A stretch of DNA of 64,000 nucleotides. Origin: Cystobacter ferrugineus (GTDB lineage: Bacteria; Myxococcota; Myxococcia; Myxococcales; Myxococcaceae). Positions 50,453-63,610 of the stretch are shown here, one piece after another. Both the position numbers and the translations under genes were made by a program. Under the pieces are notes generated by a model. That model searched no databases and was not told the origin of the DNA. It saw only the letters and a list, made by a program, of their open reading frames with translations. The number at the start of each line of letters is the position of its first letter. Within the stretch, counting starts at the first letter, position 1. Location: contig NZ_MPIN01000001.1 in assembly GCF_001887355.1 (NCBI RefSeq), positions 845,932-909,931 on the forward strand. Direction: 5' to 3'.

Positions 50453-51547
50453 ATGGCGTCGATGAACTCCGCAATCACCCAGGACTTCGCTCCCGTCATC
50501 CGTGCCGTGGAGCGACTGCTCCCGCAGCACTACTCCCCGCAGGATCAGATCATCGGGGCGCTGCGGGACCTGTGGGCCACGCGGCACTACAACGTCGAGC
50601 GCCTGGAGGAGTTGCATCGCTCGGTGCAGGTGGACGGCCGCTTCCTCGCCCTGCCCATCGAGCAGTACCACACGCTCACCACCTTCCAGCAACGCAATGA
50701 CGCGTGGATCAAGGTGGCCAGCGAGCTGGGCGAGCAGGTGGTGGGCAAGGCATTGGAGCGCACGGGGCTCACGCCGCGGGACGTGGACCACATCTTCTTC
50801 GTCACGGTGACGGGCATCTCCACGCCGAGCATCGACGCGCGGTTGATGAACCGCATGCGCATGCGCTCGGACGTGAAGCGCACGCCCATCTTCGGGCTGG
50901 GGTGCGTGGCGGGGGCGGCGGGCGTGTCGCGCGCCTCGGACTACCTGCGCGCGTGGAAGGACCAGACGGCGCTGCTCATCACCGTGGAGCTGTGTTCGCT
51001 GACGCTCCAGCGCGAGGACCTGTCCATCCCCAACATCATCGCCTCGGGGCTCTTCGGGGACGGGGCCGCGTGCGTGGTGTTGCAGGGGGCGGGCAAGGCC
51101 CCGGCGAACGCGGGCCCGCGGGTCGTGGCCACCCGCTCGGTGCTCTTCCCGGACACCGAGCGCATCATGGGCTGGGACGTGGTGGACTCGGGCTTCAAGG
51201 TGGTGCTGTCGGCCAAGGTGCCGCAGCTCGTGCGCGAGCACATCCGCCAGGACGTGGACGGCTTCCTCGCCGAGCAGGGGCTCACGCGCAAGGACATCAA
51301 GCACTGGGTGGCGCACACCGGCGGCCCCAAGGTGTTGCAGGCCTTCGAGGACTCGCTGGAGCTGGTGGCGGGCTCGCTGGAGCGCTCCTGGAAGTCCTTG
51401 CACGAGGTGGGCAACCTGTCCTCGGCCTCGGTGCTCTTCGTGTTGGGTGACACCCTGGCGGCGGGCGTGGCCCAGCCCGGCGACTGGGGCGTGATGATGG
51501 CCATGGGTCCGGGCTTCTGCGCTGAACTCGTGCTGCTGCGATGGTGA
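50453..51547 (+). CDS. Type III polyketide synthase (first cassette)
   Basis: The 364-residue protein is a chalcone-synthase-fold enzyme. The catalytic triad is Cys151 (GLGCVAGAAG), His288 (HWVAHTGGPK) and Asn321 (GNLSSAS). It would take an acyl starter from CoA or from the adjacent ACP, add malonyl units and cyclise the chain, giving pyrone, resorcinol or quinone-type products. The GCVAGAAG nucleophile region is like that of many bacterial type III PKSs such as PKS18. ACP and ligase genes follow on the same strand with 71- and -4-base spacing. The ATG at 50462 (MNSAITQ) has a better-spaced ribosome-binding site, so the start could be nine bases later. Confidence 0.92.
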   Translation: MASMNSAITQDFAPVIRAVERLLPQHYSPQDQIIGALRDLWATRHYNVERLEELHRSVQVDGRFLALPIEQYHTLTTFQQRNDAWIKVASELGEQVVGKALERTGLTPRDVDHIFFVTVTGISTPSIDARLMNRMRMRSDVKRTPIFGLGCVAGAAGVSRASDYLRAWKDQTALLITVELCSLTLQREDLSIPNIIASGLFGDGAACVVLQGAGKAPANAGPRVVATRSVLFPDTERIMGWDVVDSGFKVVLSAKVPQLVREHIRQDVDGFLAEQGLTRKDIKHWVAHTGGPKVLQAFEDSLELVAGSLERSWKSLHEVGNLSSASVLFVLGDTLAAGVAQPGDWGVMMAMGPGFCAELVLLRW

Positions 51548-51618
51548 GCCGGCGGGACGGCTCGCCCTCTTTCGAGGCTCCTGCCAGGGGGGCCTCGCTT
51601 CCTTGCCGGAGGTACGCC

Positions 51619-51900
51619 GTGGTTGAGCATGAGCTGGTGGTCCTCGATGAAATCCGCCGCATCGTTTCCCATGAGCTGGAGTGGAGTGGCCCGGTGGAGC
51701 CCGTGCATCACCTGATGCGCGACCTGCAACTCGACAGCCTGGGTCTCACGGTGCTGGCGGTGGAGCTGGAGAATCGCTTCCGCATCCGCCTGTCCATGGA
51801 GGACTCGGTGGGCGTGGTCACGGTGGGAGACCTCATGCACCTGGTGGCCTCGCGGCTGTCGGGTGGCACCCGGGACGCCTTCGTGGAAGGCGCGCCATGA
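51619..51900 (+). CDS. Acyl carrier protein (first cassette)
   Basis: The 93-residue protein has an ACP fold with the phosphopantetheine Ser40 in DLQLDSLGLTVLAVELE. It would carry the fatty acyl group made by the downstream ligase to the type III PKS. The GTG at 51619 is chosen because GGAGG (51607-51611) lies just upstream; an ATG at 51541 would overlap the PKS gene and add a non-ACP extension. Its stop overlaps the ligase start (ATGA). It is clearly different from the ACP of the second cassette in the segments outside DxxxDS. Confidence 0.9.
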   Translation: MVEHELVVLDEIRRIVSHELEWSGPVEPVHHLMRDLQLDSLGLTVLAVELENRFRIRLSMEDSVGVVTVGDLMHLVASRLSGGTRDAFVEGAP

Positions 51901-53651
51901 AGGGGCCCCCGCTGCCGCGCGTGAAGTACCCCACGCTCAACGAGGCCCTGGTGGGCGCGGCCCGTGGGCGGCTCGGGCTCATCTTCGTGGACGCGGCCGA
52001 GCGCGAGACGCATCTGCCCTGGGCCCAGGTGTACGAGCGGGCCCGCCGCACGGCCTCGGGGCTGCACCGTCTGGGAGTGCGGCCCGGGGATCGCGTGGCG
52101 CTGCTGCTGCCCACCTCGCCGGGCTTCATGGACGCGTTCTTCGGCACGCTCCTGGCGGGCGCGGTGCCGGTGCCGCTCTATCCCCCGGTGCGCCTGGGCC
52201 GGCTGGAGGAGTACCACCGCTCGACGGCGCGCATGTTGGAGGTGTCGGGCGCGGCCGTGGTGCTCACGGACTCGAAGGTGCGGCTGCTCCTGGGCGCGCC
52301 CGTGGCGGCGGCGCGTCCCCGGTTCGGGTGCCTGACGGTGGAGGACGTGTCGCGCGAGGGGGGGGAGCTGGCGCTGTCCGTCACGCCCCAGTCCCTCGGC
52401 CTCATCCAGTTCTCGTCGGGCTCCACGGTGGACCCCAAGCCGGTGGCGTTGCGCCACGACAACCTGATGGCGCAGCTCGCGGCGCTGGAGGCGGAGATTC
52501 CGCCGCCGCTCGAGGGCGACCCCGTGGGCGTGTCGTGGCTGCCGCTCTACCACGACATGGGCCTCATCGGTTGTCTGCTCTCGGCGCTGTACTACCCGGG
52601 GAGCATGGTGCTCATTCCGCCCGAGGTGTTCCTCGCGCGGCCGGCGCTGTGGCTGCGCGCCCTGTCGCGCCACCGCGGCTTCGTGTCGCCCGCGCCCAAC
52701 TTCGCCTACGGGCTGTGCCTCAAGCGGGTGAAGGACGCGGAGCTGGAGGGCGTGGACCTGTCGGCCTGGCGGCATGCGCTCAATGGCGCGGAGCCCGTGT
52801 CGCTGGAGACGCTGCGGCGCTTCGGCGAGCGCTTCGCGCGCTGGGGCTTCCAACCGGGGGCGATGCGGCCCGTGTATGGGCTGAGCGAGGCGTCGCTCGC
52901 CGTCACCTTCCCGGTGGCGGGCCGGGGGCCGTACGCGCTCGGAGTGGACGCGCGGGTGCTGGCCATGGAGCGGCGCGTGGTGGACGGCGAGCGCCCGGTG
53001 GTGTCCGTGGGGCGTCCGGTGCCGGGCGTCGAGGTGCAGGTGCGCGACTCGCTGGGCCACGTGTTGCCGGAGCGGCGCGTGGGGCGGGTGTTCGCCCGGG
53101 GCCCCTCGGTGATGGAGGGCTACTTCGGCCTGCCCGAGGCCACGGTGCGCGCGTTGGACGAGGCGGGCTGGCTGGACACGGGGGACCTGGGCTTCGAGGC
53201 GGACGGCGAGCTGTTCCTCACCGGCCGCGCGAAGGACCTGGTCATCATCCGCGGCGCCAACCACGCGCCCCAGGAGTTCGAGGAGGCGCTGGAGGGCGTG
53301 GAGGGCCTGCGCACGGGGTGCGCGGTGGCGCTGGGCTTCACCCCCGAGGACGGCCAGGACGAGGCCCTGCTGGTGCTCGCCGAGCATGCGCCGGGGGCGC
53401 GGGTGGAGGGCCTGGAGGAGCGGGTGCGCGAGGCGGTGGTGGCGAGCACGGGCGTGCGGCCCCACACGGTGCGGGTGCTGGAGCCGGGCACGCTGCCGCG
53501 CACGTCCAGCGGCAAGCTGCGCCGGGGCGAGGCCTTGCGGCGCTTCCTCGCCAATGAGCTGACCGCGCCCAAGAAGGTGAAGACGGTGGGGCTCATGGTG
53601 GAGATGGCCCGGAGCGCGCTGGCCTTCGCCCGGGCGGGGCGCGAGGAGTAG
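51897..53651 (+). CDS. Fatty-acyl-AMP ligase (first cassette)
   Basis: The 584-residue ANL enzyme has the acyl-adenylate core: FSSGSTVDPKPV (P-loop-like), WLPLYHDMGLIG, YGLSEASLAVT, DTGDLGFEADGELFLTGRAKDL and the A10 lysine in PRTSSGKLRR. GRAKDLVIIRGANHAPQ is typical of FAALs, which give acyl-AMP and load ACP or PKS instead of CoA. Its ATG overlaps the ACP stop by four bases, so ACP and ligase are coupled. A hairpin lies shortly after the stop. Confidence 0.92.
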   Translation: MKGPPLPRVKYPTLNEALVGAARGRLGLIFVDAAERETHLPWAQVYERARRTASGLHRLGVRPGDRVALLLPTSPGFMDAFFGTLLAGAVPVPLYPPVRLGRLEEYHRSTARMLEVSGAAVVLTDSKVRLLLGAPVAAARPRFGCLTVEDVSREGGELALSVTPQSLGLIQFSSGSTVDPKPVALRHDNLMAQLAALEAEIPPPLEGDPVGVSWLPLYHDMGLIGCLLSALYYPGSMVLIPPEVFLARPALWLRALSRHRGFVSPAPNFAYGLCLKRVKDAELEGVDLSAWRHALNGAEPVSLETLRRFGERFARWGFQPGAMRPVYGLSEASLAVTFPVAGRGPYALGVDARVLAMERRVVDGERPVVSVGRPVPGVEVQVRDSLGHVLPERRVGRVFARGPSVMEGYFGLPEATVRALDEAGWLDTGDLGFEADGELFLTGRAKDLVIIRGANHAPQEFEEALEGVEGLRTGCAVALGFTPEDGQDEALLVLAEHAPGARVEGLEERVREAVVASTGVRPHTVRVLEPGTLPRTSSGKLRRGEALRRFLANELTAPKKVKTVGLMVEMARSALAFARAGREE

Positions 53652-53671
53652 GCGCCCCGGGCGGCCCCCCG

Positions 53672-53717
53672 GAAAAACGAAGACGCCGGGCGCGCTGTGT
53701 GGGGCGCGCTCCGGCGT
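53672..53717 (-). terminator. Intrinsic terminator for the M43 peptidase gene
   Basis: A 13-bp stem with one bulge (ACGCCGGGCGCGC / GCGCGCTCCGGCGT, 53683-53717) is followed, on the minus strand, by CTTCGTTTTTCC. It lies between the convergent FAAL (+) and metallopeptidase (-) genes and may serve both. Confidence 0.65.
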
Positions 53718-53744
53718 CGGGACGGCGGGGACTTCAGCCGCGAA

Positions 53745-54626
53745 TCACAGACCGCGGTAGGTCTTCACCATCGAGTCCATGCGCTCGATCTGGCCCGCGG
53801 AGAAGGTGTTCATGCAGGCGTCGTCGCTGTAGTCCATGAAGTTGGTGATGGGATCCAGGCCGGCGGAGGAGCAGGTGTCGCGGCCCGTGGGGCAACCCGA
53901 CGCCGGAGTGGACTCGGCCGGGGTGTCGCTCACGCTGTCATTCGTGGTGGTGCAGCCGCCCTGGAAGGTGTGGTACAGGCCCAGCCAGTGGCCGACCTCG
54001 TGGGTGGCCGTGTCGCCCTGGTTGAAGGGGGCCGCGGTGCCGCCGGGCAGCGAGCTGTAGAGGATGACCACGCCGTCCATCTTCGGCTGCGACGAGTAGC
54101 TGGAGGGGAAGGTCGCCCAGCCCAGCAGGCCGCCGCCCATGTTGTTGGAGTAGACGTTGAGGTCGCCCGCGCCGCCCTTGCGCAGCGCGTTCTTCATCTG
54201 CGTCTCGTAGGTGCCGCCCGTGGTGGTGTACCAGGAGTTGTTGGCGGTGGTGTCCGTGCTCACGAGCGAGAACTTGAAGGGCGTCTTCGAGTAGGCGGCG
54301 TTGAGCACGGAGATCTGGTTGGCGATCGCCGTGGCGCTCAGGGCGCCCGCGCCCGAGGTGTTGGTGATGGTGTGCCAGTAGACCTTGATGGTCACCGAGC
54401 CCGGGGTGCGCGCCTGGCCCTTCACCGTCCCCGCGATGGCCTGCTCCACCGCGTTCCTCTCGGCCTCGCTCAGGTCCTTCGTCACGCAGCCGCGCGCGAA
54501 GCCCTGCTCCTGGGGCGCCGACTCCTCAACGGGCAGCTGATCCACCTCGGTACAGCCACCGAGCGCCAGGACCGAACCCAGGACCACCGCGAACTTGCCA
54601 CTCTTCGACACGACGCTGCGGGACAT
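53745..54626 (-). CDS. M43 (pappalysin-like) zinc metallopeptidase lipoprotein
   Basis: The 293-residue protein has a lipobox (ALGGC, Cys25) and the metzincin zinc motif HEVGHWLGLYH (209-219) with the Met-turn NFMDYSDD (Met264). The cysteines around 225-252 fit the disulfides of M43B cytophagalysin-like enzymes. It probably cleaves proteins outside the cell or on the surface. It sits alone between the two PKS cassettes on the same strand as the second. No functional link to lipid synthesis is visible. Confidence 0.92.
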   Translation of the reverse strand: MSRSVVSKSGKFAVVLGSVLALGGCTEVDQLPVEESAPQEQGFARGCVTKDLSEAERNAVEQAIAGTVKGQARTPGSVTIKVYWHTITNTSGAGALSATAIANQISVLNAAYSKTPFKFSLVSTDTTANNSWYTTTGGTYETQMKNALRKGGAGDLNVYSNNMGGGLLGWATFPSSYSSQPKMDGVVILYSSLPGGTAAPFNQGDTATHEVGHWLGLYHTFQGGCTTTNDSVSDTPAESTPASGCPTGRDTCSSAGLDPITNFMDYSDDACMNTFSAGQIERMDSMVKTYRGL

Positions 54627-54744
54627 TCCAACTCCTCGGGGGAAAGTTGGAAATCTTCTACTTCAGGGAATTAAGAACAGGCAAGGGAGCGAGCTCTTTT
54701 TCTAAAAGTATGAGAAACAACCAAAACGGGTGGGCTGGGATTTT

Positions 54745-56589
54745 TCAGTGCACCACGGCCACGGGGGGCGGCGGCTTCACCAGGAGGGAGAGGGCCTCGA
54801 ACTCCTCGATGTTCTGGCGGATGTAGGCGCGCTTGAGCTTGCCGCTGGTCGTCTTGGGCAGGGACTGGGGCGGCACGGGGACGACGCGGTTGGGACGGAC
54901 TCCGGCGCCCTGGAAGACGGTCTCCTCCACGTGCTTGCACAACTGGCGCAGCGCGTCGGGCTTGCTCTCGGTCGTCTCGCACACGATGACGATGTCCTCG
55001 GTGCCCGTCTGGGCGTTGTTGACGCCCACCGCCGCCACGCAGCCCACGCGCACGCCCGCCACGCGCCCGGCGGCGTTCTCCATGGTGTACGGGTGGTGGT
55101 TTTCCCCCGCCTTGATGATGAGATCCTTGCTGCGCCCGCAGATGAAGAGCTCTCCGCCGGCGAGGTAGCCCAGGTCTCCGGTGTACAGCCAGCCGTCGCG
55201 CAGCACCGCGTCCGTGGCCTCGGGGTTCTGGTAGTAGCCGCTGAAGAGGGACGTGCCGCGCAGGAGGATCTCCCCCTCATGGCGCTCGGGCACCGGGTGG
55301 CCCTCCTCGTCCACGATTCTCAACTCGATGCCCTTGAGCGGCCGGCCCACGCCGTGCACCACGAGCGCGTCGGTGTGGGGGCCCGGGGCCAGGGGCACGG
55401 CCTCGCGCCGCGTGGCCAGGGCCGTGCGCGAGAGCGTCTCGACGCGCAGGGGCTCGCCCCGCATGCGGCACGTCACCCCCACCACCATCTCCGCCATGCC
55501 GTAGGACGGCCGCCACGCCTCCGCCTCGAAGCCATGGGGGCCGAAGCGCTCGGTGAACTGGTGCACCGTGTCGGCGTGGATGAACTCCGCGGCGTTGTAG
55601 GCGCGCTTCCAGGCGCTCAGGTCCAGGCCGTCCAGCTCCGCGTCCTTGATCCGCTTGACGCACAACTGGTAGGCGAAGTTGGGCGCGAAGCACGAGGTGG
55701 CGCGAAAGGCGTGCATCGTCCACAGCCAGCGCGAGGGCTTGAGCAGGAAGCCGAAGGGCGGCAAGAGCGCCGTGGGCAGGCCGTGGACGAGCGAGGCCAG
55801 CACGCTCGCCACCAGACCCATGTCGTGGAAGAGCGGCAGCCAGCAGACCATCAGGTCATCCGAGTCCCACCCGCCGCCCTCGCCGATGGCCGCGCAGTTG
55901 GCCAGCAGCGCCCGGTGGGAGATCTGCACGCCCTTGGGCGCGTCCGTGGTGCCCGAGGTGAACTGGATGAAGGCCGTCTCGTTCGCGTCCAGGGTGGGCG
56001 GGGTGAGGGGCTCGGCGTCGGCCACCAGGTCCGTGGGGACGGCCACGAAGGGGGTGGGGTGGCCGGACTCGGGGGTGTACTCGGCGAGCGCCTCGTGCGC
56101 CAGGTCCACGAAGTCCGGATCGATGAGCATGGCGCGGGCGCCGAGCAGCCGCAGCTTCGCGCGCAGCCGCTCGCCCCAGGCCTGCACGGACACCTTGGAG
56201 GAGGGCAGCTCGATGAGACAGGGCGTGGCGCCCACCAGCCCGCAGGCCAGGAAGCACTCGAGGAACTCGGGGCTGGTGTCGAACGAGAGCACCACCCGGT
56301 CCCCGTGCCGCACGCCGCGCGCGCGCAGGTTGGCGCCCAGGCGCAGGGTGTTGTGCAGCAGGTCCCCCGCGGTGAGCACGGTGAGCCGCTCCTCCAGGTC
56401 CACGAAGTAGAGCAGGGGCTGGGAGGGGCGGGTGCGTCCCCAGTGCACCACGGCCTCGGCCAGCGAGTGCACGGGGGCGGGCTGGGCGCGCGTGGGGGCG
56501 CGAGGGGCGAGCTGCCGGCTCGGGTGACGCCCCGCTCCGGGGCCGAGTGCGATGGGACCCGTCTGTCGCCGCAGCGGCTCGTGGCTCAT
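54745..56589 (-). CDS. Fatty-acyl-AMP ligase / acyl-CoA synthetase (second cassette)
   Basis: The 614-residue ANL enzyme has FTSGTTDAPKGVQISH (P-loop), WLPLFHDMGLVASV, YGMAEMVVGVT, YTGDLGYLAGGELFICGRSKDLI and the A10 lysine in PKTTSGKLKR. An N-terminal extension of about 40 residues (Arg/Pro/Ala-rich) is unlike the first cassette. KDLIIKAGENHHPYTME is like FAALs, but CoA-ligase activity cannot be excluded. It follows the PKS by 55 bases. Given the ACP at the start of the operon, acyl-ACP formation is the likely role. Confidence 0.9.
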   Translation of the reverse strand: MSHEPLRRQTGPIALGPGAGRHPSRQLAPRAPTRAQPAPVHSLAEAVVHWGRTRPSQPLLYFVDLEERLTVLTAGDLLHNTLRLGANLRARGVRHGDRVVLSFDTSPEFLECFLACGLVGATPCLIELPSSKVSVQAWGERLRAKLRLLGARAMLIDPDFVDLAHEALAEYTPESGHPTPFVAVPTDLVADAEPLTPPTLDANETAFIQFTSGTTDAPKGVQISHRALLANCAAIGEGGGWDSDDLMVCWLPLFHDMGLVASVLASLVHGLPTALLPPFGFLLKPSRWLWTMHAFRATSCFAPNFAYQLCVKRIKDAELDGLDLSAWKRAYNAAEFIHADTVHQFTERFGPHGFEAEAWRPSYGMAEMVVGVTCRMRGEPLRVETLSRTALATRREAVPLAPGPHTDALVVHGVGRPLKGIELRIVDEEGHPVPERHEGEILLRGTSLFSGYYQNPEATDAVLRDGWLYTGDLGYLAGGELFICGRSKDLIIKAGENHHPYTMENAAGRVAGVRVGCVAAVGVNNAQTGTEDIVIVCETTESKPDALRQLCKHVEETVFQGAGVRPNRVVPVPPQSLPKTTSGKLKRAYIRQNIEEFEALSLLVKPPPPVAVVH

Positions 56590-56644
56590 GGCTGTGACCT
56601 CGGGGGTGTGACCGTGGTGAAGAAACGGCTCTGGAGAAACGGAC

Positions 56645-57706
56645 TCAGAAGCGGACCAGGATGCCCTCGACGGTCAGTCCGGGTCCAAATCCCATCATCA
56701 CGCCGTACTCGCCGCGCTGGGGGTTGTCCGAGCGCAGCACCTCCTCGAGCACCAGCAGCACGGTGGTGGCGCCGCAGTTGCCGTACTCGCTGAGCACGTG
56801 CCAGCTCGCGCGCATGCGCGACTTGTCCAGCTTGAGCTGCTTGCCCAGGCCCTCGAGGATCTTCGGCCCGCCCGGGTGGATGAGCCAGTGCTTGATGTCA
56901 CCGGCCTTGAGCCCCTCGGGGCCGAGCAGCTTCTCCAGGAAGTCGTCCACGTGCTCGGCGAGCACGAAGGGCACGTAGGGCGACAGGTTCATGCGGAACC
57001 CGTCGTTGTGCATGTTCCAGCCCATCAGCTCGTGCGTGTCGTAGAGCTGCTCGGTGTGCGAGCGCAGGAACTGCACGCCCTCACCGTCCGGGGCGCTGCC
57101 CATCACCACCGTGCACGCCGCGTCGCCGAACAGGCCGTGGATCACCACCTGCTCGGGGTCCGGCGTGTCGTGGTAGTGCAGCGAGCTGTACTCGGAGGCG
57201 TTGGCGATGACGTACTCGTCCGGGCGCGCGGCGACGCTGTCCATGGCGGTGCGCAGCACGGGGAAGGCCGCGAAGCAGCCCATGTGCCCCACGAAGGTGC
57301 GGCGGATGCTGGAGGGCAGCCCGAGCTTCTTGGCGATGTACAGGTCCAACCCAGGCCCCGAGTAGCCCGAGTTGGTCGTCATGGTGAAGGCGCCCACGCG
57401 CGAGCGCTCCAGCTCGCCCAGCGCCTTCTGCACCGACTCCCCGGTGACCTGGAGGCCGACGCGCTCGTACACGCGCACCCGGTCCCCCACGCCCATCCGG
57501 CCCTTCTTGAGCTCCACGCGGGGATCCCACGCGAAGAAGCGGCGGCGCACCCCGGTGTTCTGGATGATGCGCTGGGCGTTGGGGACGTTCTTGAACCAGT
57601 CCTTGAACAGCCCCTCGTAGATTTCTTCCTGCGTGAGCGACAGCGGGGGAACGGCCGAGGCGATGGACAGCAGGGTGGGGCGACGCTCGGGTGCTACCGG
57701 CGTCAT
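56645..57706 (-). CDS. Type III polyketide synthase (second cassette)
   Basis: The 353-residue enzyme has the chalcone-synthase triad Cys144 (GHMGCFAAFP), His277 (HWLIHPGGPKIL) and Asn310 (LSEYGNCGATTVLLVLEE). FGPGLTVEGILVRF at the C-terminus is very typical of the family. The region before the nucleophile is MGC, unlike GCVAG of the first PKS, so the two belong to different subfamilies rather than being a recent duplication. Its ATG overlaps the ACP stop by four bases. The starter is likely fatty acyl-ACP. Confidence 0.93.
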   Translation of the reverse strand: MTPVAPERRPTLLSIASAVPPLSLTQEEIYEGLFKDWFKNVPNAQRIIQNTGVRRRFFAWDPRVELKKGRMGVGDRVRVYERVGLQVTGESVQKALGELERSRVGAFTMTTNSGYSGPGLDLYIAKKLGLPSSIRRTFVGHMGCFAAFPVLRTAMDSVAARPDEYVIANASEYSSLHYHDTPDPEQVVIHGLFGDAACTVVMGSAPDGEGVQFLRSHTEQLYDTHELMGWNMHNDGFRMNLSPYVPFVLAEHVDDFLEKLLGPEGLKAGDIKHWLIHPGGPKILEGLGKQLKLDKSRMRASWHVLSEYGNCGATTVLLVLEEVLRSDNPQRGEYGVMMGFGPGLTVEGILVRF

Positions 57707-58041
57707 GCCGCCTCCGAGTCCAGTGCCTCGAGCCCGTCGCCCAGGGAGGCCTCGTCGCCCGTCACGTTCGCGTCCTGGGGCTGCGGCTGGCGCTCGTCGA
57801 TGAAGTCCACCAGGCTGCCCACCGTGTCATGTCCCCGGCGCGACGCCTTGATGTACCAGGGGGTGAACTCGATGTTGGCCACCTCGTCCTTGAGCCGGGA
57901 GATCATCGACTCCAGGTGGAAGGAGTCCATGCCCAGGTCGTACGTCATCGAGGAGAACTCGTTCACGTCGTCCGGGTACAGGCCCGTGTGGGTGGCCAGG
58001 ATGATGTTGCGAACGTGATCCAGAATCTCCTGCCGGTGCAT
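57703..58041 (-). CDS. Acyl carrier protein (second cassette)
   Basis: The 112-residue protein has the phosphopantetheine Ser40 in YDLGMDSFHLESMISRL and a C-terminal acidic extension of about 25 residues. The ATG at 58041 follows the strong ribosome-binding site AGGAGGT. It is the first gene of the minus-strand cassette and is coupled to the PKS. A promoter with an operator-like repeat lies 64-91 bases upstream. Confidence 0.88.
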   Translation of the reverse strand: MHRQEILDHVRNIILATHTGLYPDDVNEFSSMTYDLGMDSFHLESMISRLKDEVANIEFTPWYIKASRRGHDTVGSLVDFIDERQPQPQDANVTGDEASLGDGLEALDSEAA

Positions 58042-58104: not shown

Positions 58105-58132
58105 ATTACAGCTCTGTAACATGTTCGGTCAA
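58105..58132 (-). promoter_or_regulatory. Promoter and inverted-repeat operator of the second PKS cassette
   Basis: On the minus strand, TTGACC (58127-58132), a 16-base spacer and TGTAAT (58105-58110) form a sigma70-like promoter. An inverted repeat TTACAG-N2-CTGTAA (58106-58119) overlaps the -10 and spacer, so a bound repressor would block transcription. Confidence 0.6.
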
Positions 58133-58184: not shown

Positions 58185-59984
58185 TCACTCGACGTGATAC
58201 TGCCGGGCGACCTGGCTGACCTGGTGGGAGACCTTCTGGAGCATGTCGGCGGCTTCCTGGGTGGATTCCAGCCGTTCCAGGGACTGATCCATGCTGCGTG
58301 ACAGGTCGGCGATCGCATTGAAGATTTGAGCGAAGCCGGCGTTCTGCTGACTCACGGCGGCGGTGATTTGTGTAACGGCCTCGGAGCTGTCGTTCACCAT
58401 GAGCGAGAGCTGGCGCAGGCTGTCGCCCGAGGTCTTCACCTTGCCGAGGCCGCCCTCGACCTGGGCGGTGCTCACGTCCGTCATGGCGACGGCGTCGCCG
58501 ATGGCGTTGCCCACCTCGTCGAGGATGGTGGTGATGCGGCTGGTGGAGCGGATGGATTGATCGGCCAGGACGCGGATCTCCCGCGCCACCACGCCAAAGC
58601 CCTTGCCGTGCTCGCCCGAGCGCACCGCCTCGATGGCGGCGTTGAGGGCGAGCAGGTTGGACTGGTCGGCCAGGTCCTTCACCGTCTGGGTGATTTCACC
58701 GATCTGCACGGCGCTGGCCTGCAGGCGCTCCATCTTGCCGCGGATGGCGAACACCGAGTCGCGGATGGCGCTGAAGCCGGCGATGGTCTGCTCGATGGCG
58801 AGGGTGCCCGAGCGGCTGAGCTCCTCGGCGTGGCGCACCACGTTGAGCACCTCCTCGGCGCGCTGGGCGGTGAGGTCCGAGGTCTGCTTGATTTCCTGCG
58901 CGGTGACGTTGGTGTCCTGGATGGTGGTGGCCTGGGTGGTGAGCGCCATGCGCTGGGCCTCGTTGGCGTGGCGCAGGGTGGCGCCCGCCTCGACGAGCTG
59001 GGCGGCGGACTGCTGGAGCGCGCGGGGCAGGGCGCTGAGCTGCAACACCACGGCGTTGAGCCCGAAGGCCAGGTCGCCAATCTCGTCGCTGGACACCCAC
59101 TGGGCCGGGCGCACCTTGCCCACCGACAGGCCCTCGATGGCCTCGAGCACCGCGAGCGAGCCCTGCTCCTGCCGGCGTGCCAGCATCCACGCGGAGAGCG
59201 TGGCGAGGGTGAGCAGCATGATGACGAGCACGGCCACGGGGATGCTCAGCTCGGACAGCAGCGCGGCGCCGAGCCCCTCCAGCATGTAGGCCGCCTGGTG
59301 CTGCCCCACCGCCTGGAGGTCCTCGATGTAGCGGTTCTGCACGTTGCTCATCTGCACCGCCACGGTGAGGCCCCCGAGGACGATGAGCGACAGCACGCAG
59401 ACGGCGAAGGCGTAGGGGAGGAACCAGGACTGGCGCAGCCAGAAGAAGCCGCCGCCCACCACGCGCAGGTGGGGATGGCGCCCCTGCTCCTCGAGCGCCA
59501 GCGGCTGGGTCCAGCGCTCGATGGTGATGCCGGCGGGGAACGCCAGCAAGAGGCCCACGGACAGCCCGATGAGGCTGCCCCAGAGCACCAGCCACAGGCT
59601 CTTGTCGAAGAGCAGGCACACGCCGGTGCAGAAGAAGCACGCGCCGAAGGTGTACGAGCCGGCCATCACGTAGATGGCGATGCGCCAGGGCATCTGCAGC
59701 AGGCGGCCCAGGCGCAGGCCCTGGGGCTCGCCGGGGATGACACGCACGGCGTCGCGGTGCAGGTAGTGGATGGTCAGCGGCGGGTAGAGCACGCCGAAGA
59801 GCAGGATCGTGGGGGGCAGCAGCCAGAGGACGGACTGGACGACCTGCTCTCCCTGGAGCCCCAGCATCATTCCCACCAGGTAGGCCAGGAAGGGCGCCAG
59901 TGGCATCGCGCACGCGCGCATGAGCGCATCAATGCGTCCGGGCAGGGAGCGGTTGCTGCTGCTCAACGGATTGAAGAACGCCAT
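58185..59984 (-). CDS. Multi-spanning methyl-accepting chemotaxis-like protein
   Basis: The 599-residue protein has an N-terminal membrane part of about six segments (residues 20-290), without a typical large periplasmic sensor domain. A HAMP-like segment (about 285-340) and the MCP signalling hairpin follow, with the conserved tip region LADQSNLLALNAAIEAVRSGEHGKGFGVVAREIRVLADQS. It probably talks to a CheA/CheW pathway. The input is unknown; it may sense membrane state. No che genes are adjacent. Confidence 0.9.
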   Translation of the reverse strand: MAFFNPLSSSNRSLPGRIDALMRACAMPLAPFLAYLVGMMLGLQGEQVVQSVLWLLPPTILLFGVLYPPLTIHYLHRDAVRVIPGEPQGLRLGRLLQMPWRIAIYVMAGSYTFGACFFCTGVCLLFDKSLWLVLWGSLIGLSVGLLLAFPAGITIERWTQPLALEEQGRHPHLRVVGGGFFWLRQSWFLPYAFAVCVLSLIVLGGLTVAVQMSNVQNRYIEDLQAVGQHQAAYMLEGLGAALLSELSIPVAVLVIMLLTLATLSAWMLARRQEQGSLAVLEAIEGLSVGKVRPAQWVSSDEIGDLAFGLNAVVLQLSALPRALQQSAAQLVEAGATLRHANEAQRMALTTQATTIQDTNVTAQEIKQTSDLTAQRAEEVLNVVRHAEELSRSGTLAIEQTIAGFSAIRDSVFAIRGKMERLQASAVQIGEITQTVKDLADQSNLLALNAAIEAVRSGEHGKGFGVVAREIRVLADQSIRSTSRITTILDEVGNAIGDAVAMTDVSTAQVEGGLGKVKTSGDSLRQLSLMVNDSSEAVTQITAAVSQQNAGFAQIFNAIADLSRSMDQSLERLESTQEAADMLQKVSHQVSQVARQYHVE

Positions 59985-60181: not shown

Positions 60182-60922
60182 TCAGAGCTTCAGACGCTTG
60201 AAGACGCGCTCGGGGATGGAGCGGATGAGGAACATGATGGGGCGCCAGAAGTCGGGCAGGTATACCTCGTCCTGGCCCGCGTCCACGGCGCGCAGGATGC
60301 CTCGGGCCACCGCCTCGGGCGAGGCGAAGAGCGCGTTCTTCTTCACGGCGGCCGTCATCGGCGTGTCCACGAAGCCCGGCTTCACCGTCACCACGGCCAC
60401 GCCCGCGGGCGCCAGGCGGTTGCGCAGGCCCTGGAGGAACACGCTCAAGGCGCCCTTGGATGCGCCGTACACGTAGTTGCTCTGCCGCCCCCGGTCTCCG
60501 GCCACCGAGGAGATGACCACGAGCGTGCCGGCGCGCTGGGCCTCGAAGCGGTTGGCCAGGGGAGTGAGCAGCGACACCGCGCTGAGGAAGTTGGTGCGCA
60601 GCACCTTCTCCGTCTCCCCATAGGAGCGCTGGGCCCGCTCCTGGTCCCCGAGCACCCCGTGGGCGAGCAGGGCGCCATCCAGTCCACCGAGCGCCGCCGT
60701 GGCGCGCTCCACCAGGGACTCGTGCTGGGCGAAGTCGTCCAGGTCCAACGCCTCGGCCTCCACCCGGGCCGCGCCTCGCGTGCGGGCATCCTGGGCCACG
60801 GCCTCCAACCGCTCGGAGTGACGGGCAACGAGGTACAGCGATGCGCCCCGCGCGGCCAAAAGCCGCACGGTGGCCTGGGCGATGGCGCTCGTGGCGCCGA
60901 GGACGAGGACCTTTTTCATCAT
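60182..60922 (-). CDS. dprE2: DprE2-like short-chain dehydrogenase (decaprenylphosphoryl-2-keto-ribose reductase type)
   Basis: The 246-residue protein is an SDR with the NAD(P)-binding VLVLGATSAIAQATVR, catalytic YVYGASKGAL and Ser in VISSVAG. ALLAHGVLGDQE and the C-terminus (FWRPIMFLIRSIPERVFKRL) match mycobacterial DprE2 closely. DprE2 reduces the 2-keto intermediate from DprE1 to give polyprenyl-phosphoryl-D-arabinose. The start codon is the first ATG of an ATGATG pair, 11 bases after the DprE1-like gene. Confidence 0.88.
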   Translation of the reverse strand: MMKKVLVLGATSAIAQATVRLLAARGASLYLVARHSERLEAVAQDARTRGAARVEAEALDLDDFAQHESLVERATAALGGLDGALLAHGVLGDQERAQRSYGETEKVLRTNFLSAVSLLTPLANRFEAQRAGTLVVISSVAGDRGRQSNYVYGASKGALSVFLQGLRNRLAPAGVAVVTVKPGFVDTPMTAAVKKNALFASPEAVARGILRAVDAGQDEVYLPDFWRPIMFLIRSIPERVFKRLKL

Positions 60923-60933
60923 GGAGCGACTGT

Positions 60934-62250
60934 CTATCCCGCGCCGCGCACCCGACGCCAGAACGACGAGGAGAACGCCGGGTCCACGTATTGGGCGAAG
61001 CGCTCGCGCTCCGGGAAGTACGCCGCGAAGCTCTCCGGGCTCATGCGCGAGTCCTTGGCCGGATACACCCGGCCGCCCACCTCGCGCGTGAGCCGGTCCA
61101 GCTCGTCCACGAGCTGGTACGTGCGCTCGCCCCGGTTGGCGAAGTCCAGCGCCAGCGAGTAGCCCGCCTTGGGAAAGCTCATCCACCCCGGCGACGGCAC
61201 GTCTCCGTACGTCTTGAGCACCGTGAGGAAGGAGGGCATGCCGCTGTGCGCGCTGCGATCCAGGATTTCCTTGAGCGCCGCCACGCCCACGTCACCCGGG
61301 GGCACGACGCACTGGAACTGCACGAAGCCCTGGCTGCCGTAGATGCGGTTCCAGTGGTGCACGCTGTCCAGGGGGAAGAAGTACGGCTCGTAGTGCATGA
61401 GCCCCTGGTTGCGCATCCGGTAGTGGAGCGCGTTGAAGGCCGCCACCGAGACGCGGTTGAGTGCCAGGCCCGGGAAGTCGAAGGGCACGGCGAGGCCCGA
61501 CAGGCGCGGGGGAGACGGCGCCCGGGAGCTGAACTGCGGGGGCGCGTGGTTGGCGCGGTGGAACAGGCCCCGGCCCAGGTGGCGGCCCCGGGCGAGGCTG
61601 TCCACCCAGGCCACGGTGTACTCGAAGTCCTGGAGCGACTCGCGCGTGAGCTTGAGGAAGCCTTCCAGGTTGGAGAAGGCGATCGTCTCCTGGTGCATGT
61701 AGGGGTTGCTCACGCGCCGTAGCTGGAGCTCCGCCCAGGTGATGAGCCCGGTGAGCCCGAGTCCGCCGATGGTGGCCTCGAACCAGTCCCGGTTCTCCTC
61801 GGGCGAGCACACCCGGCGCGAGCCATCCGAGCGCACCAGCTCGAAGCGGCGCAGGTGCCGCCCGAAGGTGCCCACGCGCACGTGGTTCTTGCCATGCACG
61901 TCATTGGCGATGGCGCCGCCCACCGTCACGAACTTCGTGCCCGGGGTCGCCGGCAGGAACCACCCCTGGTTCGTCACCAGCCGGAGGATGCCGTCCAGGG
62001 TGACACCCGACTCGCAGCGCAGCACACCCGTGGCCGGGTCGAAGCCCAGGAAGTGATCCAACCGCTCCGTCGTCAGCAACGAGCCGCCCTCGTTGAGGCA
62101 CGAGTCGCCATAGCTGCGGCCCAGGCCATGGGGCAGCAGCGAGCCGCCTTCCGGAGGCATGGGCAGCGGCTCGCTCGTCCACGTGACGGGGTGCGCCTTC
62201 TGCCCGGAGACACGGGGGTAGCGCCCCCAGGATTTCGGTTCCATCGCCAT
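60934..62250 (-). CDS. dprE1: DprE1-like FAD-dependent oxidase (decaprenylphosphoryl-ribose 2'-epimerase subunit)
   Basis: The 438-residue protein is a vanillyl-alcohol-oxidase-fold enzyme. It has GLGRSYGDSCLNEGG, VTVGGAIANDVHGKNH and AKDSR, all as in mycobacterial DprE1, and the aligned C-terminal half (HHWNRIYGSQGFVQFQ and VDELDRL). DprE1 oxidises polyprenyl-phosphoryl-ribose at C2'. The position of the mycobacterial benzothiazinone-target cysteine (NICVDF) is SLALDF here, so it is Ala367. ATG 62250 has the best spacing from GAGGAGG; neighbouring ATGs at 62256, 62253 and 62244 are also possible. Confidence 0.9.
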   Translation of the reverse strand: MAMEPKSWGRYPRVSGQKAHPVTWTSEPLPMPPEGGSLLPHGLGRSYGDSCLNEGGSLLTTERLDHFLGFDPATGVLRCESGVTLDGILRLVTNQGWFLPATPGTKFVTVGGAIANDVHGKNHVRVGTFGRHLRRFELVRSDGSRRVCSPEENRDWFEATIGGLGLTGLITWAELQLRRVSNPYMHQETIAFSNLEGFLKLTRESLQDFEYTVAWVDSLARGRHLGRGLFHRANHAPPQFSSRAPSPPRLSGLAVPFDFPGLALNRVSVAAFNALHYRMRNQGLMHYEPYFFPLDSVHHWNRIYGSQGFVQFQCVVPPGDVGVAALKEILDRSAHSGMPSFLTVLKTYGDVPSPGWMSFPKAGYSLALDFANRGERTYQLVDELDRLTREVGGRVYPAKDSRMSPESFAAYFPERERFAQYVDPAFSSSFWRRVRGAG

Positions 62251-62269
62251 CATCATCCTCCTCGGCTCC

Positions 62270-63610
62270 TCACGCCGCGGCCAGCAGCACACCGGCGGCG
62301 ATGACTCCCACCGCGTAGCTCACCTTGTCCTTGAGCGCGAACACGAGCGGGTCCTCGTTCACTTGTCCCCGGTGCGCCAGCAACCACACCCGGCCCACCC
62401 AGTACAGCATCACCGGACACAACAGCCACAGCCGTTCCGGGTGCGCATAGAGCGCCGTCACTTCCTTGCTGGTGATGTAGAGCGCGAGCACCAGCACGGA
62501 CAGGTAGCCACTGGACACGCCGAGCGCGGCGAGCTGCTCGTAGTCTCCGGACACGTAGCCCCGTCCGTGCGCCACCGACTCGTTGGCCAGCCGCAGCCGC
62601 CGCACCTCGCTCAGCCGCTTGACCAGCGCGAGCGACAGGAAGAGGAACATGGAGAAGCTGAAGAGCCAGCTCGACGTGGGGACGCCCACCGCGAGCGAGC
62701 CTCCGAAGATGCGCACCGTGTACAGCCCGGCGAGCACCAGCACGTCCAGCATCATCACCTGCTTGAGATAGAACGAGTAGGCGAGCGTGATGAGGTAGTA
62801 CGTGCCCAGCAGGGCGAGGAACTCGCGCGGCAGGAGCAGGGCCACCGCCGCTCCCGCGCCCAGCAGCCCCAGTCCCAGCCACGGCCCCGCCCCGAGCGGC
62901 AGCGCTCCCGAAGCGAAGGGCCGGCGGCGCTTGCTCGGGTGCTGGCGGTCCGAGTCCAGGTCCAGCAGGTCATTGAGCACGTACACGCTGGAGGCGCACA
63001 GGCTGAAGGCAATCATCCCCAGCAGCGCGTGCAGGAACAGGGTCGGGTTCATCGCCTTGTGCGCGGCGAGCAGCGGCACGAACACGAGCACGTTCTTGGC
63101 CCACTGGTGGATGCGCAGCGCCTTGAACAGCGCGCGGACGCGGGGCATGAACGGGGGCGCGTGACGTGCTTCCTCGTACGGGGCGCCGAGCGTCTCGCGC
63201 AGCCGGGCCTCGCGCGGGGCACCGGACAGCTCCTGGGTGCCATCGCTCGCGAGCACCGTCTCGAAGAGGCCCAGGTGCGCGGCCACCGCGTCCGCCACGC
63301 GCCGGTCCGCCACCGTGGCCAGCACCAGCCGGCGGCCGCTCGCCTTCTCCTCGGTGAGCCGCGACAGCAACGCCTCGTCATAGGGCAGCCGCGCGGGGTC
63401 CAACTCCACGTGCCGCGCCACCTCCGCCCGGCAGAAGGCCCGGCCCCGGAGGCGCCACCCCAGCGCGGCGGGAATCAGGTGCGGCTGACGCTTGAGCAGC
63501 CGCACGAGCCCCTCATGGAGCGAGTCCGTGCGGATGAGCACTCCGTCCAGCTCGGTGACGAGCGCTGGTGCGTCGGGGGCGGGGGTGGCGGAGGGCATCG
63601 GAGTCGGCAT
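62270..63610 (-). CDS. UbiA-family prenyltransferase with N-terminal HAD-like domain (DPPR synthase type)
   Basis: The 446-residue protein has a HAD-like N-terminal domain (about 10-140) and a UbiA membrane domain (about 150-446) with nine hydrophobic segments. The UbiA motifs are VYVLNDLLDLDSDRQHPSKR and DVLVLAGLYTVRIFGG. The family includes decaprenyl-phosphate phosphoribosyltransferase, the first step of decaprenyl-phosphoryl-arabinose synthesis, consistent with the neighbouring dprE1-dprE2-like genes. The HAD motif I reads ELDGVLIRTD, so the nucleophilic Asp is Glu20. The start is uncertain; GTG 63673 or ATG 63598 are alternatives. Confidence 0.88.
   Translation of the reverse strand: MPTPMPSATPAPDAPALVTELDGVLIRTDSLHEGLVRLLKRQPHLIPAALGWRLRGRAFCRAEVARHVELDPARLPYDEALLSRLTEEKASGRRLVLATVADRRVADAVAAHLGLFETVLASDGTQELSGAPREARLRETLGAPYEEARHAPPFMPRVRALFKALRIHQWAKNVLVFVPLLAAHKAMNPTLFLHALLGMIAFSLCASSVYVLNDLLDLDSDRQHPSKRRRPFASGALPLGAGPWLGLGLLGAGAAVALLLPREFLALLGTYYLITLAYSFYLKQVMMLDVLVLAGLYTVRIFGGSLAVGVPTSSWLFSFSMFLFLSLALVKRLSEVRRLRLANESVAHGRGYVSGDYEQLAALGVSSGYLSVLVLALYITSKEVTALYAHPERLWLLCPVMLYWVGRVWLLAHRGQVNEDPLVFALKDKVSYAVGVIAAGVLLAAA

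Follow-up and report, generated by a model that had tools for sequence, protein, structure and literature searches.

Two facing cassettes, each composed of a type III polyketide synthase (PKS), an acyl carrier protein (ACP) and a fatty acyl-AMP ligase (FAAL), lie in the 64,000-nucleotide stretch of Cystobacter ferrugineus DNA analyzed here (the window; assembly GCF_001887355.1, contig NZ_MPIN01000001.1, positions 845,932 to 909,931). The loading mechanism that this arrangement brings to mind is known, and the pair can be explained by an old operon standing beside a module of a different lineage. We consider it likely that both cassettes are self-contained type III PKS systems fed by acyl-ACP, cassette 1 being a reduced form of a widely conserved myxobacterial operon of the type of Myxococcus xanthus FtpA (ftp-type) with remote tailoring genes, and cassette 2 a separate lineage that would make a second lipid. 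The original prediction described a plus-strand PKS-ACP-FAAL set facing a minus-strand ACP-PKS-FAAL set around an M43 peptidase, which is what the gene models and family assignments reveal:

50453-51547, plus strand: PKS1, a type III PKS of the Pks11-like/ftp-like lineage, with Pfam chalcone/stilbene synthase domains.
51619-51900, plus strand: ACP1, a carrier protein with a DS motif, the Pfam PP-binding domain and an ACP1-type profile.
51897-53651, plus strand: FAAL1, a fatty acyl-AMP ligase with the Pfam AMP-binding domain and FAALs as its top solved relatives.
53745-54626, minus strand: M43 metallopeptidase by Pfam, with a lipoprotein-like N terminus (judged by eye), adjoining FAAL2.
54745-56589, minus strand: FAAL2, a fatty acyl-AMP ligase of a second lineage, with the Pfam AMP-binding domain and FAALs as its top solved relatives.
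56645-57706, minus strand: PKS2, a type III PKS of a second lineage, with Pfam chalcone/stilbene synthase domains.
57703-58041, minus strand: ACP2, an unusual predicted carrier protein with a DS motif.

Cassette 1 is read in the order PKS1-ACP1-FAAL1 and cassette 2 in the order ACP2-PKS2-FAAL2, followed by the M43 gene. Gaps are 71 bp between PKS1 and ACP1, 93 bp between FAAL1 and M43, 118 bp between M43 and FAAL2, and 55 bp between FAAL2 and PKS2, and 4-bp overlaps occur at ACP1/FAAL1 and PKS2/ACP2. Both carrier proteins have an alternative start, an in-frame ATG at 51541 for ACP1 and a longer open reading frame (ORF) starting at 58122 for ACP2. The tail-to-tail layout, with 5.1 kb from PKS1 to PKS2, is found in all four genomes of the window genus, and the coordinates from both PKS searches place the two synthases 9.4-27.8 kb apart in 6/6 Archangium-group genomes. 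The expected recurrence of the pairing in related genomes is therefore seen in 10 of 10 genomes of two genera, and the conserved arrangement exceeds chance. The ratio of nonsynonymous to synonymous rates (dN/dS) is at most 0.6 in 19 of 20 gene comparisons, the exception being the M43 gene (0.89 against G003). A promoter and terminator scan returned no promoter-like and two terminator-like sites, which is not above the level of shuffled sequence.

Domain matches and a Cys-His-Asn triad, which is also present in the aligned rows, identify both synthases as type III PKSs; the catalytic residues are Cys151, His288 and Asn321 in PKS1 and Cys144, His277 and Asn310 in PKS2. The closest solved relative of PKS1 is Mycobacterium tuberculosis Pks11 (310 bits), with CylI also among the closest, and the closest solved relatives of PKS2 are PKS18-like. 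Indeed, the PKS2 model (mean predicted local distance difference test score, pLDDT, of 90.4) retrieves PKS18 and its M. marinum relative as its first structural matches. For FAAL1 and FAAL2, FAAL chains outrank acyl-CoA ligases among solved structures, and the NCBIfam FAAL scores are under the curated cut-offs. ACP1 matches the Pfam PP-binding family, whereas ACP2 matches no Pfam family and has weak NCBIfam ACP matches. The DS motif and Trp62, which precedes the third helix, are common to 12/12 aligned ACP2 relatives. The AlphaFold model of ACP2 is a four-helix fold (mean pLDDT 78.1), and its Foldseek list consists nearly entirely of ACPs or ACP-containing complexes, with a best E value of 1.3e-3 and none below 0.001. 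Given the DS attachment motif and the modeled four-helix fold, ACP2 has the predicted features of a carrier protein.

The two cassettes belong to different lineages. PKS1 and PKS2 are about 31-33% identical, and in a PKS tree of 80 sequences they fall on opposite sides of a branch with a support of 100; PKS2 sits within a 38-row clade (support 99) of Myxococcota, Actinomycetota, Microvirga and metagenome-assembled genomes. The PKS and FAAL trees come from quick searches with Shimodaira-Hasegawa-like approximate likelihood ratio test (SH-aLRT) supports, include outside rows, and have some long branches flagged. These data bear on the alternative that cassette 2 is a diverged local duplicate of cassette 1, as might be suspected from cassettes that are neighbors in every one of the 10 genomes, and from a survey that mentions gene duplication in the Archangium alkylpyrone cluster (PMC12224551, PMC12766979), although the gene meant there is unsure. 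However, the synthases are separated by the fully supported branch and PKS2 groups with actinomycetotal and Microvirga enzymes, the FAALs and ACPs are likewise of differing lineages, and the gene multiplied beside cassette 2 in Archangium is that of the M43 peptidase. A duplication origin is thus extremely improbable, and we reject it on the identities and the PKS tree. The description of the locus as two complete cassettes in different gene order therefore stands in part: two sets are present, but cassette 1 is without local methyltransferase and monooxygenase genes, and the sets differ in lineage rather than being order-shuffled copies.

Cassette 1 was placed by a PKS1 search (E <= 1e-60) of 147 genomes of the class, with neighbors counted around one best PKS1 match per genome. 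PKS1 is present in 114 of these genomes, and within 4 kb of it lie FAAL1 in 98, an ICMT-like methyltransferase in 93, and both in 83. The commonest order among annotated relatives is PKS1-ICMT-ACP1-FAAL1-FMO, where FMO denotes the monooxygenase. The M. xanthus alkylresorcylic acid cluster is described as comprising a stilbene synthase, a methyltransferase, an AMP-dependent synthetase and a monooxygenase (PMC5006271), and because the order in the relatives fits this cluster, we assign cassette 1 to the ftp type. The adjacency of PKS, ACP and FAAL that goes with this type is found in cassette 1. ICMT and FMO are absent from the operon in all four genomes of the window genus. In the source genome (G000; 12.05 Mb in 42 contigs), an ICMT-FMO pair with confirmed families lies on another contig (G000:C3:516143-517819; L101 8641-10347). 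Remote ICMT and FMO genes are also found at separate loci in G002, G003, G080, G081 and G082, and neither gene is matched anywhere in G001 at the thresholds used, so that three of the four genomes of the window genus have the remote pair. Identity of the remote FMO is 58-60% with the FMOs found in the Archangium-group operons and 66-69% with the FMOs of G080-G082, and PKS1 itself is 82-84% identical between the window and the Archangium group (6/6 genomes). Since the FMO identity is far under that of PKS1, a simple recent move does not account for the remote pair, which represents a lineage that has diverged. At these thresholds, each matching genome has one ICMT match, except for two in G118, and one FMO match. 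These comparisons suggest that cassette 1 is most likely tailored by the diverged remote ICMT-FMO pair. As a separate observation, G118 encodes a second PKS1-like synthase (38% identity) with its own adjacent ICMT, among large genes (G118:C1:3811831-3813512; L092).

Cassette 2 is much rarer. In searches of the same 147 genomes, PKS2 (E <= 1e-60) was found in 14 and FAAL2 (E <= 1e-120) in 13. Cassette 2 belongs to a larger block, and three further genes of the window are to be considered on its upstream side:

58185-59984, minus strand: methyl-accepting chemotaxis protein (MCP) by Pfam, upstream of ACP2 on the same strand and a member of the cassette-2 block.
60182-60922, minus strand: DprE2-like reductase by NCBIfam, under the curated cut-off, flanking the cassette-2 block (context).
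60934-62256, minus strand: DprE1-like oxidase by NCBIfam, under the curated cut-off (context).

The block MCP-ACP2-PKS2-FAAL2-M43 is present in the 11 genomes with a close PKS2 (at least 62% identity); the order was read from annotated stretches for nine of them, and in G001 and G046 the MCP was placed by match coordinates and the other genes by reading the loci. MCP matches of at least 65% are confined to these 11 genomes, the next best being 49%. More distant PKS2 relatives (44-55%) lie on contigs other than that of PKS1 in G071, G080 and G082, and the position of PKS1 at the edge of its contig in G121 prevents a judgment on linkage to PKS2. The DprE2-like gene of L111 (Hyalangium versicolor) and of L112 (G080) adjoins cassette 1, separated from it by no more than a small ORF, and for this reason we view the cassette-2 block as occupying a site that is empty in these two genomes. 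The M43 gene adjoins FAAL2 in 11/11 of the genomes with a close cassette 2. Its relatives are found in 65/147 class genomes, far beyond the 14 with PKS2, so that a part for the peptidase in lipid synthesis is not indicated. In five Archangium-group stretches (L064-L068), two to four copies of M43 genes stand beside cassette 2. In two of these stretches (L067 and L068, from G048 and G051), PKS2 is 62% identical to the window copy and FAAL2 is 76-77% identical, which hints at a possible replacement of the PKS or fast change inside cassette 2.

FAAL and ACP genes accompany most near relatives of PKS2. A scan with a PKS2 alignment covered the best 80 of 330 relatives; partners were detected with the FAALs of the window and two custom ACP profiles, which unlike ligases or ACPs would escape. 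Within 5 kb of the 31 near relatives (at least 285 bits), a FAAL is found at 29, an ACP at 29 and both at 28; this set includes four myxobacterial loci that are also in the ACP2 training set, and some of its loci end at contig edges. Around the 49 distant relatives (at most 226 bits), neither a FAAL nor an ACP occurs within 5 kb (0/49). The source genome has a third type III PKS, an intact gene (L194 6458-7594; G000:C2) whose product is about 45% identical to PKS2 and 91% to the PKS of L097, with no FAAL or ACP recognized in the 20 kb around it. In the solitary lineage to which it belongs, the partners may have been lost, may be borrowed in trans, or may be dispensable; the third PKS could, for instance, borrow ACP2 and FAAL2 in trans. 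At three loci an ACP2-like domain is fused to an acyl-CoA-dehydrogenase-like enzyme (L128:6484-7992, L137:6905-8281 and L140:6898-8274, in Nannocystis, Microbispora and Microtetraspora hosts). In each of them Pfam recognizes an acyl-CoA dehydrogenase domain and a PP-binding domain, the latter barely over the cut-off in L128, and such fusions would fit the processing of an ACP-bound acyl chain. The actinobacterial Couchioplanes cluster has an acyl-CoA-dehydrogenase-like gene, a UbiG-like methyltransferase and two class-III aminotransferases in its context, which yielded no product idea.

Partner exchange is suggested by nine mycobacterial loci. Their PKSs share about 50% identity with PKS2 and 30-33% with PKS1, and their FAALs match FAAL1 best in 9/9 cases; the seven FAALs measured share 54-57% identity with FAAL1 and 36-39% with FAAL2, and in the FAAL tree the mycobacterial FAALs cluster with FAAL1 at a support of 100. 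Profile scores type the mycobacterial ACPs as ACP1-type in 6/6 cases and the others as ACP2-type in 15/15, with 9/9 and 20/20 in a wider scan. Because the mycobacterial loci join a PKS2-type synthase to ACP1/FAAL1-type partners, the ACP type tracks the FAAL and not the PKS. Exceptions to this rule are the actinobacterial loci L137 and L142, in which the FAAL is nearer to FAAL1 and the ACP is ACP2-type. The argument rests on the wider trees, the identities and the profile scores; an approximately unbiased (AU) test on the FAALs involved three groups on an unrooted tree and is hence satisfied by design. A broader reading of these data, to which we give slightly less than even chances, is that cassette 2 represents one coherent class of ACP-dependent type III PKSs that has spread horizontally and possesses an ACP type of its own, that the FAAL-ACP pair is an exchangeable loading unit, and that these myxobacteria would maintain two orthogonal loading systems. 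This broader reading is weakened by the solitary relatives, which score 322-345 bits to PKS2 and therefore fall inside the range of the near relatives, though they stand outside the 80-locus scan.

On the genes, residues, linkage, lineages and distribution described above, a common route may be proposed for both cassettes. The FAAL would adenylate a fatty acid and load it onto the ACP of the same cassette, at the phosphopantetheine arm; from there the acyl group would move to the PKS cysteine, and the PKS would extend it with malonyl-CoA (or methylmalonyl-CoA) before cyclization to an alkylresorcinol, alkylresorcylic acid or alkylpyrone. For cassette 1, a methyltransferase and a monooxygenase would be supplied by the diverged pair on the other contig. 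Cassette 2, whose block has the DprE2-like gene on one side and cassette 1 on the other and was probably acquired there, would make a second lipid. That an ACP and a ligase beside each PKS point to acyl-ACP loading fits the arrangement seen here, and the mechanism itself has already been published for M. xanthus. A FAAL is reported to be involved together with a type III PKS in alkylresorcylic acid formation (Hayashi 2011), and acylation of the M. xanthus ACP by its FAAL has been shown in vitro (PMC8460268).

As for the products, Trp241 of PKS1 and Trp230 of PKS2 occupy the position equated with ArsB Trp281, the equivalence being drawn via Pks11 and MMAR_2474 Trp230. A Trp at this position is tied to resorcinol-type ring closure in PMC5916927 and PMC6274091. 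In our alignment, in which genomes are partly repeated, the Trp occurs in 35/36 PKS1 rows and in 14/17 myxobacterial PKS2 rows, and Leu takes its place in all nine mycobacterial and all six Microvirga rows. However, Pks11 carries the Trp, yet the titles of its solved entries refer to the synthesis of methyl-branched alkylpyrones, and the residue is therefore a weak guide to resorcinol closure. By its best solved relatives PKS2 might be an ordinary PKS18-like pyrone synthase, but Trp230 speaks against this. Most likely, the two synthases work independently of each other, each fed by acyl-ACP, and would yield two phenolic or pyrone lipids.

Several observations weigh against the view of two acyl-ACP-fed cassettes, one of them a reduced ftp-type operon. 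The proposed chemistry is predicted from genes for both cassettes, and the ftp-type label draws on gene order and a published cluster description. In 16 of the 114 genomes with PKS1, FAAL1 is missing from the 4 kb around it; ten of the 16 keep ICMT and six have neither, and in four of the 16 (G035, G037, G039 and G065), a FAAL1 match lies on another contig. Eight genomes beyond the window genus and G080-G082 have FAAL1 beside PKS1 and no ICMT match genome-wide at the threshold used. On the side of cassette 2, two of the 31 near PKS2 relatives are without a nearby FAAL and two without a nearby ACP, and no FAAL or ACP was detected in the 14-20 kb around three solitary relatives (the third PKS of the source genome, L097 and L100). 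An AU test on a reduced PKS set, which asks only whether the mycobacterial PKSs are sister to the rest, does not reject their placement outside the other PKS2 rows (p 0.195). Finally, FtpA is reported to use long-chain acyl-CoA starters, as are the M. marinum enzymes to use acyl-CoA (PMC5916927), so that an ACP is not strictly needed.

This last point leads to the alternative that the PKSs take acyl-CoA and that the FAAL-ACP pair serves another role, such as acyl delivery for tailoring or esterification, for which the PKS1 loci without FAAL1 and the solitary PKS2 relatives may also be cited. Against it stand the joint presence of FAAL and ACP near PKS2 relatives (28/31 compared with 0/49), the proximity of FAAL1 to PKS1 in 98/114 genomes, the 4-bp overlaps, and the precedent of other type III PKSs that use acyl-ACP (PMC6274091). 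On balance we consider this alternative unlikely. Cooperation of the cassettes on one product, through a shared acyl-ACP or tailoring, or with one product feeding the other synthase, seems to us more doubtful still. The linkage held in 10/10 genomes of two genera would agree with it, but the spacing in the Archangium group reaches 27.8 kb with other genes intervening, the PKS2 relatives of G071, G080 and G082 are on contigs other than that of PKS1, and the ACP and FAAL of one cassette differ in type from those of the other. The proposal of two self-contained cassettes is itself compatible with a further explanation, to which we give somewhat better than even chances, namely that cassette 2 landed once beside cassette 1 and has been inherited there with no functional tie. 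The constant site between the DprE2-like gene and cassette 1, combined with variable spacing, is in line with this explanation, and vertical descent alone suffices for the linkage. The tight tail-to-tail layout, unchanged in the four genomes of the window genus, argues the other way, though these are close relatives.

Comparison with known systems, as described in the cited papers, sets the two cassettes apart in different respects. The M. xanthus FtpA operon likewise joins a type III PKS to a FAAL, and its described order fits the PKS1 neighborhood in relatives; in contrast, the window genus has ICMT and FMO outside the operon, and the PKS, ACP and FAAL of cassette 2 are of another lineage. 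The myxobacterial 'alkylpyrone' cluster (BGC0001831, Hug 2019) is also a conserved type III PKS cluster, surveyed in Archangium, Cystobacter, Melittangium, Myxococcus and others, with 20-63% similarity to the reference cluster (PMC12224551/PMC12766979). Duplication is stated in that survey, whereas we find two lineages, if the same synthases are meant. Cylindrocyclophane biosynthesis (CylA/CylB/CylH/CylI) resembles the cassettes in starting with a stand-alone FAAL and ACP and ending with a type III PKS (PMC11837247, PMC8086630), but there type I PKSs elongate the chain between ACP and type III PKS. No type I PKS gene is present among the Pfam-scanned genes at 49.3-63.6 kb of the window, the part of the genome searched. 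ArsA/ArsB/ArsC and germicidin synthase are type III PKSs that accept acyl-ACP (PMC6274091); for ArsB and ArsC this comes from fatty acid synthase, and the accessible text does not mention a dedicated FAAL. Among the M. tuberculosis enzymes, Pks11 is the closest solved relative of PKS1 and PKS18 is among the closest of PKS2, but PKS18 has no Trp at the cyclization position, unlike PKS2 with its Trp230. In a literature search of mainly open-access text, without supplements, we found no published description of the PKS2/ACP2/FAAL2 family, of FAAL-ACP partner exchange, or of the split operon.

The wider FAAL-ACP-PKS2 family is more interesting than the pair itself. CoA dependence is the usual description of type III PKSs, and here the synthase mostly keeps a FAAL and an ACP beside it across phyla. 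The occurrence of FAAL-ACP pairs with differing synthase lineages supplies naturally occurring pairs for testing how type III PKSs recognize carrier proteins, and the genes may serve as parts for the production of resorcinol or pyrone lipids. The findings also speak against a simple duplication reading of neighboring cassettes and indicate that a conserved myxobacterial operon can be divided between distant loci.

Finally, DprE2-like, DprE1-like and UbiA-type phosphoribosyltransferase-like genes (60182-63598) adjoin the cassettes in the window, and such genes are near cassette 1 in several relatives as well.

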